Origin: Aphanomyces cochlioides
Taxonomy: Eukaryota > Oomycota > Saprolegniomycetes > Saprolegniales > Verrucalvaceae
DNA length: 64,000 nt
Reading direction: 5' to 3'
Assembly: GCA_019828595.1 (NCBI GenBank)
Contig: JAHQRK010000018.1
Location: 744,001 to 808,000 of the forward strand
Of the stretch, positions 3,001 through 5,823 are shown piece by piece (the stretch's first letter is position 1; each line of letters opens with the position of its first letter). The notes beneath the pieces are model-generated. The model saw only the letters and a program-made list of their open reading frames with translations, searched no databases and was not told the origin of the DNA. A program made the translations under genes and the position numbers.

Positions 3001-5823
3001 GATTCGCTTAAGGTAGGGGCTGAAAAGAACGTCATCACTAGTTGGACGCGGAATATTGAAGACTCGAGAATCCATCACTTGGCAGAGCCTTGCCACACGT
3101 GCAGTTGTTGTGACTTCATTCAACGAATATCGGCTTCTAACTTCACCCTTCAAAACAACGTGGAATGAAACAGCTTCCAGTGGAATATTAAATGAAGCAA
3201 CTAAGTCGTTCGAGTCATCAATTGGAGGCAGGTTGCGAATTTCTCGTTTTGTCTGGACGGATGTGCCACTGGTGAACACCAAAGAAATGACCAAGTTTTC
3301 GAGCAGGCTTGTTGATACAACACAGCCATTTGCATATAAGAATGTTCGAATGACAACGGTGGCTTTGATTCCTACGATTCAAATAGTCAAGAATTTGTCT
3401 CATGTAATCAATACCTGGGATAAGTTGCTCATTGTCAATATTGATGTGCGCCTTCATAACGTAGCTTTCTTCACAATACTTGAACTTGTCCAATATTCCA
3501 AATGAGTCGACACCAACGTAAATTGGACTTTGAATTTCCACCGGTGCCGCACGAGTCTCTTCTGTCGACGAGAAAAATGGCACAAGAATCTTGCCGTCCG
3601 AAGATCCAACAAATGTTTGGTGTTTTGATGTGTCCTTGATATCAGGGACCACAGCAAATGCCTTGGGTACAACACGATTCTCTTCGTCGAATACAAGCAA
3701 CTCATGACCTTTTGAAGTGATTTGTTGAGTAAATCGCAAGAACCCTTTGCGTACAACAGCTCGGCAAGCTGTGTTTTCACCTACCACTTCAATCACATAA
3801 ACTCCTCGTTGACTTTCCTCCAAAGAAGCAAATTTAACAATATGTTGAGTCTTCACATAGCTGGGCAAGTGAGCGAACGTAACTCGCATTTCTTCATTTG
3901 GAAGCAATCCTTCCAAAGAAATGTCACTTTCAATTTCTCGAAACGTTCGTTTGTAGTGATCACTCACGTTGATCTCGAACAGTTGGATTGTGAGAGCCTT
4001 GACATTTTTCACATCCAATACAAGGGATACAGGTTCGCTGAGTGAAAACGTCGTCGGATTTGATTTACTGAAGGAAACTTCGGATCCATGGAAAACACGC
4101 TGTTTATCAGCTGGTTTGGTGATATCATGCTCGAAATCACTGCGTGCTCCAATGCCGCTTGTCAGCATTGCGATGGCATTTTGACTTTTAATATAATCAC
4201 CACTCAAGTAAGGTGCGAATTCCTGAACACTAGTTCCTTTAACAACAAGGGTACTGAACATGTGTCGAACTAACTCCTATCACAACATCAGTGCGTCAAA
4301 GAACGAAATAGTATACCTCATCGGAATCTGCAGTAAGCGTGTATCCCAGACGAATAGCCAACTTGGACACAGGTACTTTAGATCCCATGGAACTGCTATG
4401 GTCTTGCTGTTTTTGAGGTTGCAGACCAGGGCCAAATGTGGATTGTGCAGATCCGGATACTGATGCTCGATAAGGCGAAGGTTTAGATCGAAAGTCTGCA
4501 GTCTTGAAGCCGTCATTTGCACTTGTTTCAGTTAGAACAACCATAGCTTCAAATTCAGCAGATCGGATAAAACTCTCATTCACGAACGAGGCGCCGAGGC
4601 GAGGAATTGAAATGTATTGGAGAAACAAACTGTGCAGAGGTTGCTCACTCTGTTTGTACTGAATCAACTGAAGCCAACGATGCAAGATAACTAAGCGCAA
4701 ACCATTGAGTTCCAGTCCAAACCGATCCAACGCTTGTAGAGCCGAGGAAAAAAAGGTTTCTTCATCGGGATTTGCGGCTTTCAATAACAACAGATAATTT
4801 TCGGCAAAGGCGACGCTGTCAAAAAGAATTGTAGCACATTTTGACCATACAGCATCCAATTGAATAATGTTGAGACGCTTGTGATAAGGACCTTTTCCAA
4901 ACACATCCTCGATGATACCATTATTGACATTGTTTTGATGTGTCTTCAAGATGTGCTCTGATATGACGTCAGTAAACCTAGAATATCTGTCACGTCATCG
5001 CACTACAGTGTTCTTACACATCACAATCACTCCATGGCAATACTTCGTTTGATAGCATATAATTTAATACTGTCCATTTCTCATCTTTCGTCCAATCTGG
5101 GAGAGCTTCAGATGATGCGAGTAGAGTAAAGAATTCTTGTCCAATATATGTGTTGATTTCACTCAGTACGTTCTGACCCTGGTACGATAATTGCCACTTG
5201 TCGTCTTGGTATGAAATATTTGTTTTGATTTCTTGTAGTTTTTCTTGTTTTATCGTTTCGATATCGTAGCTAGAACTTGGTCAATACTCACACCTAAATT
5301 TTTCGTACCATAATTGATTTGGTTTCATGGAACTTGCTGCGTCAAACGTAGATTTCACTTCCTTTGGACGCGACGCATTGAAGTCCAGACCAAGAGCTTC
5401 AGTAAAATACTTTTGCGCACTACTGTGTCCTTTTTCGAGTAGTAGTAGATGAAGTCGCAATCGAATCCGCTTGGCACGTTTGTATCCCCCATTCGAGTCC
5501 AATTCATCCGCATGTTTCAAAATCGTTCGAATGTCTTCTTCAGTTGTTGGTCCATTCACATTCAGCTCATGAATTAATTGAATTGCGTGGAAGTAGAGAT
5601 ACTCTGGCGACTTGGGAGACAAAGTGGACAAGACACTTGCACGATCATCGGCCAAAGCAAGTTGCTCTTCAATCGTGATTTCGTTGTTGTCGGAAGCTCC
5701 CTCCAATTCAATTTCACTTCTTATCTCTCCATCTATTGGCTTGGTTTGCGCTTGAACTTGGAGTTGTTTACGAGGAGCTTTTCCTCCAGTGGACTTTCTC
5801 GCGGTTTGCTTTGTGCGAGCCAT
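1..5823 (-). CDS. Giant protein with an N-terminal histone H3-tail sequence and MG/alpha-2-macroglobulin-like body (3' end outside window)
   Basis: Five exons were traced: 5823-5294, 5269-5018, 4977-4317, 4276-3415 and 3371 to beyond position 1. The introns are 24, 40, 40 and 43 nt, and the joined frame is open for 1,892 codons to the window edge. From the ATG at 5823 the protein reads Met followed by [20 protein letters not shown], identical to the first 20 residues of mature histone H3, and then diverges (QVQAQTKPIDGE). The histone fold is absent. The body has beta-sheet-like modules such as 'LGHNGEPIAHVDVKV', which recall the MG domains of alpha-2-macroglobulins; no thioester motif was seen. 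Near the window edge there is a very acidic stretch followed by a KRRK nuclear-signal-like cluster (about 760-900). The frame is also open upstream to an ATG at 5871; starting there would bury the H3 sequence internally. Function is unknown. The gene structure is well supported; the MG assignment is tentative. Confidence 0.8.

Follow-up and report, generated by a model that had tools for sequence, protein, structure and literature searches.

A candidate CAGE-type protein of Aphanomyces cochlioides begins with the tail of histone H3

Introduction

Why should a giant protein that is no histone begin exactly as histone H3 does? The question is raised by a gene of Aphanomyces cochlioides in the window, by which we mean the whole 64,000-nucleotide stretch analysed here (C10:744001-808000 of the 76.2-Mb assembly). 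The original prediction, made from the letters alone, held that a minus-strand frame encodes a perfect H3 tail followed by an unrelated protein, and that this protein could be a built-in chromatin-reader decoy or anchor, or the product of capture of the 5' end of an H3 gene.

Results

Gene model, start codon and neighbours

The minus-strand ATG at 5823 starts a five-exon gene, which in our sequence-based model encodes 2,381 aa (Table 1); the earlier estimate of at least 1,870 aa was therefore correct, and the range first given for the feature, 5270-5823, proved to be exon 1 plus intron 1. Introns of 39, 40, 40 and 43 nt, all GT..AG, separate exons whose probable splice sites were placed from the sequence and from a 90% full-length match to P0002, a separately predicted relative. 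The gene ends ~1.5 kb beyond the window.

P0002 begins at the same Met as the 5823 frame. This ATG stands in the context GCCATGG, and a second in-frame ATG lies 48 nt upstream, at 5871. Because Met directly precedes the tail in 9/9 tailed or degenerate rows of the alignment described below, conservation favours translation from 5823 rather than 5871. A genome search with P0002 gave eight matches (seven candidates scored), namely four pieces of the H3-tail locus plus the 5' ends, 29-30 codons long, of four H3 genes. Since nothing matched beyond this locus and the four H3 5' ends, the gene looks single-copy.

TFIIE-alpha is a divergent neighbour (piece 6691-7044 matches GTF2E1 chains, 5.7e-7), with the likely start codons of the two genes about 540 bp apart. 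PAF1, to whose proximity the original prediction had drawn attention, adjoins TFIIE-alpha on the far side from the H3-tail gene.

Table 1. Features of the H3-tail gene and its neighbours, in window positions unless stated otherwise.
Feature	Position	Strand	Basis
Initiator Met and 20 residues equal to H3 1-20	5761..5823	-	Comparison with own-genome H3 genes
Exon 1, CAGE-type gene	5309..5823	-	Gene model; agrees with P0002
Exon 2	5018..5269	-	Gene model
Exon 3	4317..4977	-	Gene model
Exon 4	3415..4276	-	Gene model
Exon 5	1..3371, runs past window edge; stop at C10:742518-742516	-	Gene model
Probable disordered linker, residues about 1517-1641, inside helical thioester-domain-like region	739..1113	-	pLDDT and comparison with alpha-2-macroglobulin (A2M)
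Decayed second H3-like stretch, STSSGGLSRSLAMKASRSSAPVAPGV (cf. H3 10-35)	928..1005	-	Beats 300/300 shuffles
Acidic stretch of linker	787..921	-	Sequence
KRRK basic cluster, possible nuclear localisation signal	760..771	-	Sequence; one codon downstream of AKRR
TFIIE-alpha	6361-8150 (approximate)	+	GTF2E1 match
PAF1	8221-9949 and upstream	-	Match 7.4e-26

The tail differs from the H3 genes at synonymous sites only

Compared with the H3 proteins of the same genome, residues 2-21 equal H3 1-20 residue for residue. The claim of a perfect H3 tail on a giant non-histone protein was correct, and understated. When the 76.2-Mb genome was searched with a degenerate DNA pattern for T-K-Q-T-A-R-K-S, five places matched, the four H3 genes and the H3-tail gene; a reversed-pattern control matched none. 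A scan of P0002 and of two pieces of the window revealed no histone fold (PF00125). Taken with the codon divergence and conservation described below, the genome pattern count makes chance an inadequate explanation for the histone-like peptide on this non-histone protein.

The tail codons differ from those of the four H3 genes, whose tails are identical, at 12, 13, 12 and 12 of 21 positions, all synonymously (14 or 15 nucleotide differences, 0 amino-acid differences). With ~15.7 synonymous and 44 non-synonymous sites in the 20 tail codons, the synonymous sites are near saturation against the H3 genes. Such divergence without a single amino-acid change is what selection to keep the peptide would produce, and it speaks against a chimera of assembly or a young duplication. 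Two of the genome's H3 genes differ from one another at 7/21 tail codons, and a differing codon preference of H3 genes may account for part of the codon difference.

The genome also holds three divergent H3-like genes (L005, L006 and L007), 80, 71 and 64% identical to typed H3. L007 spans only H3 residues 24-134 and has two internal stops; the three are possibly variants, a centromeric H3 or an intron-bearing gene.

The tail is conserved in most eukaryotic relatives found

The full-length query yielded 15 proteins, and searching with an alignment brought four others; when the distant relative P0014 served as query, no CAGE-type family member was added. The resulting alignment comprises 19 rows, 11 eukaryotic-type and eight bacterial-type, with P0011 (ENA), P0014 and P0009 (both EukProt) classed as eukaryotic by source or features, and with P0001, a truncated model of the window gene, left out. 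The tail is present at 18-20/20 residues in 8/11 eukaryotic-type rows and 0/8 bacterial-type rows, counts that are not independent, as 6/8 tailed rows are Saprolegniales or nearest to them. The tailed rows are the window protein, P0002, P0016 (Aphanomyces invadans H310_05939), P0004 (A. stellatus), P0005 (Saprolegnia diclina SDRG_13935), P0006 (Thraustotheca clavata THRCLA_04862), and P0011 and P0014, which are 22-24% identical to the oomycete proteins. The original prediction had taken the lack of a tail in orthologues as a sign against it; among the relatives found, orthologues share it. P0003 (A. stellatus) has a degenerate tail (7/20 residues, MVRTTQTARASSNTGGG), and P0018 (Tetrahymena malaccensis) and P0009 have no H3 tail in this alignment.

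Conservation is uneven along the peptide. Residues R2, T3, Q5, T6, A7, R8 and S10 are constant in 9/9 tailed or degenerate rows, and A1, K4, K9, T11, G12 and G13 depart only in P0003, leaving H3 residues 1-13 constant in all eight tailed rows. K14 is changed in two of these eight. Because K14 and K18 are kept in only 6/9 and 5/9 tailed or degenerate rows, the putative conserved ligand is H3 1-13. Of the sites proposed earlier to be exposed after Met removal, K4, R8, K9 and S10 lie within this ligand, K14 and K18 outside it.

A quick tree built without the tail and linker columns separates bacteria from eukaryotes (SH-aLRT 99), groups P0011 with Saprolegniales (99), and pairs the tailed P0014 with the untailed P0009 (94). 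Mapped on this tree, the tail label requires at least three changes, or two if only starred branches are counted, and a topology constrained to unite all tailed rows is not rejected (p-AU 0.263). The tail may have arisen by one gain followed by losses or by repeated gains. We lean toward a single gain, since the linker is a shared site for CTD and H3 peptides.

A linker carries second imitations in most tailed proteins

The predicted model of the C-terminal half contains a linker (pLDDT under 50 at model residues 331-455) between helices. The acidic region and KRRK cluster that had been noted as compatible with a nuclear location both lie within it. For each of the 19 rows, we compared the best ungapped match of the linker to histone tails or to CTD repeats with those of 300 shuffles of the same linker. 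The H3 score exceeded all shuffles in the window protein, P0002, P0006 (APRMQLATKASRRSAP) and P0014, and the CTD score did so in P0004, P0005, P0014 and P0016. A strong linker mimic, H3-like or of Pol II CTD heptads, is thus found in 7/8 tailed rows and 0/11 others, and with reversed H3 as a control no linker among the 19 rows reached that score level. The eighth tailed row, P0011, has an H4-type GGAKRHRKIL after its own H3 tail.

P0003, with its degenerate tail, has an FG-rich linker in which the shuffle test found no H3 or CTD mimic; it appears as a paralogue-like copy that has lost tail and linker mimic together. The linker of P0015 holds a long secretin-like insert. Of the 14 proteins in alignment A1, one matches the NCBIfam model Amuc_1098 (2.6e-64) and may be P0015.

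The protein has the described features of a CAGE subunit and, in predicted models, the domain order of alpha-2-macroglobulin

CAGE is described as a widespread, ~1-MDa hollow homotetramer of unknown function, with Tetrahymena CAGE1-3 and Dictyostelium AbpF among its members (McCafferty et al., bioRxiv 2025, PMC12485934). At 2,381 aa, the window protein lies within the size of that family (about 1,900-2,400 aa, no Pfam domains), and P0002 has no Pfam or NCBIfam family. The secondary structure of two half models follows the CAGE domain order of helical, beta sandwiches, interrupted helical, beta, helical and beta. Bacterial relatives are abundant: at least 521 of at least 581 pattern-matching contig stretches were confirmed, and 80 were kept. 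Among the matches listed, record titles name Planctomycetota, Verrucomicrobia, Lentisphaerae, Riflebacteria, Desulfobacterales and others, and many of the bacterial N-termini look signal-peptide-like by eye. Relatives thus occur where CAGE does: in ciliates (P0018), in Oomycota, and in PVC and further Gram-negative bacteria, where CAGE proteins mostly carry signal peptides. From the agreement in length, taxonomic spread, signal peptides and order of domains we infer, strongly, that the window protein is a CAGE subunit, a judgement by described features in which the ciliate row, P0018, comes from another Tetrahymena species than CAGE1-3. By analogy, it would assemble as a hollow homotetramer. 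Candidatus Uabimicrobium amorphum has two CAGE-type gene copies (L063, L088).

The predicted models are colinear with bacterial alpha-2-macroglobulin in macroglobulin domain order, and the thioester motif is absent in 19/19 rows. The models suggest that the CAGE-type subunit is distantly built like bacterial alpha-2-macroglobulin, as a thioester-less relative.

H3-like stretches in other large proteins

The search with P0014 returned 13 proteins: five family members, five with PF00125, one RNA polymerase II subunit, and two non-histone proteins with H3-like stretches. The CAGE profile matches none of the eight non-family proteins. P0026 (ENA, 1,610 aa), a large non-histone protein in which neither a Pfam family nor a CAGE profile match was found, has an H3-like start and a second H3-like stretch (LATRAARKSSRATDGVKRPR). 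P0027 (Neonectria ditissima AK830_g7150, 1,876 aa), a predicted fungal transcription factor (Fungal_trans), has an internal H3-like stretch near residue 1315, then an acidic run. As neither is a histone or matches the CAGE profile, H3-tail mimicry may be wider than the CAGE-type family.

Discussion

We consider ligand mimicry the best reading of these data, at a probability of roughly 55%: proteins that bind the H3 tail or the CTD would dock on the cage, which may be recognised as though it were chromatin. Removal of Met before Ala would free the N-terminal H3-tail mimic (core residues 1-13), and in most tailed relatives the flexible linker in the helical domain would present Pol II CTD heptads or an H3-like stretch. 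One relative (P0011) has instead an H4 tail behind its N-terminal H3 tail. The cage could then be read as chromatin or as elongating polymerase, and several tails per assembly would add avidity. The synonymous-only divergence of the tail, its presence in distant rows, and the linker mimics in most tailed rows argue for such docking. The decoy or anchor envisaged in the original prediction is plausible.

The likeliest partners would be the proteins that escort H3-H4 (RBBP4/7, Asf1, importin), or else H3K4/K9 readers and writers. The CAGE preprint equates Tetrahymena Aip1 with CAGE3 and Aip2 with CAGE1 (PMC12485934). Aip1/Aip2 are reported with Asf1 and importin-beta6 (PMC10080907, PMC6562869) and, in conjugating cells, with RebL1, the RBBP4/7 orthologue (PMC8216455), and RBBP4 and Nurf55 are described as binding the H3 N-terminal tail (PMC4139204, PMC4841774). 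Tagged Aip1 is reported to be cytoplasmic and gave no partner above threshold as bait (PMC10080907), and Asf1 was not seen by the CAGE group (PMC12485934). Several points speak against docking: the published partners belong to Tetrahymena proteins, untailed as far as P0018 shows; H3-H4 escort leaves the CTD repeats unexplained; the window protein's own second H3 stretch is decayed; and P0009 is untailed yet groups with the tailed P0014.

A broader idea, which we hold only tentatively, is that eukaryotes turned a bacterial-type A2M-like cage toward the nucleus by grafting imitations of the main signalling tails there (H3, H4 and the Pol II CTD) on to the N-terminus and an exposed linker of the cage. 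The result would be a megadalton 'counterfeit chromatin' that captures tail-acting enzymes or chaperones, either to store them under regulation or to guard the cell from proteases and effectors.

It is unlikely, in our view, that the tails are bait, in a cytosolic or nuclear A2M-type trap whose imitations of exposed disordered tails (H3, H4 and the Pol II CTD) would draw in proteases or modifying enzymes, whether these belong to the cell itself or to an invader. A protease trap is among the roles suggested by the CAGE authors (PMC12485934), and a trap would suit the A2M domain order and account for H3, H4 and CTD at once. Against it stand the lack of the thioester motif in all 19 rows and the position of the H3 tail at the N-terminus. 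The bait of A2M is located elsewhere than in the thioester domain, whereas the linker sits in the thioester-domain-like region, away from that position.

Histone tails act as import signals, and it is conceivable, if improbable, that the H3 tail (in P0011 also the H4 tail) serves solely as a histone-type signal for nuclear import. The importin-beta6 reported with Tetrahymena Aip1/2 (PMC10080907, PMC6562869) would fit. Against this, residues 1-13 are constant in 8/8 tailed rows but K14 is changed in two of them, a KRRK cluster is present anyway, a far shorter basic peptide would suffice, and the CTD repeats are left unexplained.

Capture of an H3 5' end, the other origin put forward in the original prediction, is disfavoured as a recent event by the synonymous divergence, the genome search with P0002 and the distant tailed relatives. 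It may have happened anciently, but an ancient capture that was merely tolerated, with no function in H3 recognition, seems quite improbable. H3 fusions do exist, five proteins from the P0014 search holding a real histone domain (PF00125), but here identity was retained despite saturated synonymous sites, the tail recurs in lineages whose overall identity is 22-24%, and the tailed proteins hold additional mimics. An artefact, whether an assembly chimera with an H3 gene or a start other than 5823, for which the in-frame ATG at 5871 might speak, is very improbable, given synonymous differences at 12-13/21 codons, a start shared by other species, distant tailed relatives, and a single locus without a histone fold after the tail.

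The tailed CAGE members give a specific hint that some protist lineages use the cage together with the machinery of chromatin or transcription, which accords with the Tetrahymena Asf1, importin and RBBP4/7 co-purifications. Colinearity with bacterial alpha-2-macroglobulin in turn suggests an origin for the cage. The original prediction contained neither the CAGE family with its bacterial relatives, nor the likeness to alpha-2-macroglobulin in architecture, nor the second mimics, none of which is visible from the window itself. In the open-access literature searched, no CAGE protein with an H3 tail was found described.

Comparison with known systems

With the CAGE complex the family shares a length of about 2,000-2,400 aa, the lack of a Pfam family, occurrence in PVC-type bacteria with secretion signals, in ciliates and in Oomycota, alternating helical and beta-sandwich domains, and likeness to alpha-2-macroglobulin. 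It differs in that the H3 tail, H4 tail and CTD repeats are not among the features described in the accessible text of the CAGE paper, where 'histone' occurs three times, in the context of Asf1 only, and 'chromatin' 0 times (PMC12485934). The modelled domain order is colinear with that of the bacterial alpha-2-macroglobulins of E. coli (ECAM) and Salmonella, but the CAGE-type protein has no thioester motif, carries an extra N-terminal helical part and is about 10% identical; bacterial alpha-2-macroglobulin is periplasmic, whereas eukaryotic CAGE-type proteins would be cytosolic or nuclear. Histone H3 shares residues 1-20 with the window protein, which at 2,381 aa has no histone fold. The RNA polymerase II CTD is matched by YSPTSP heptads in the linkers of P0004, P0005 and P0014, and by degenerate ones in P0016, but the repeats are few and lie within an unrelated protein, and the window protein has no heptads. 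Influenza NS1 is a short histone mimic, and such mimics likewise place an H3-like peptide on a non-histone protein. The window protein would be a cellular histone mimic that differs from them in copying 20 residues, at a true N-terminus, on a host-type protein of a family with second mimics.
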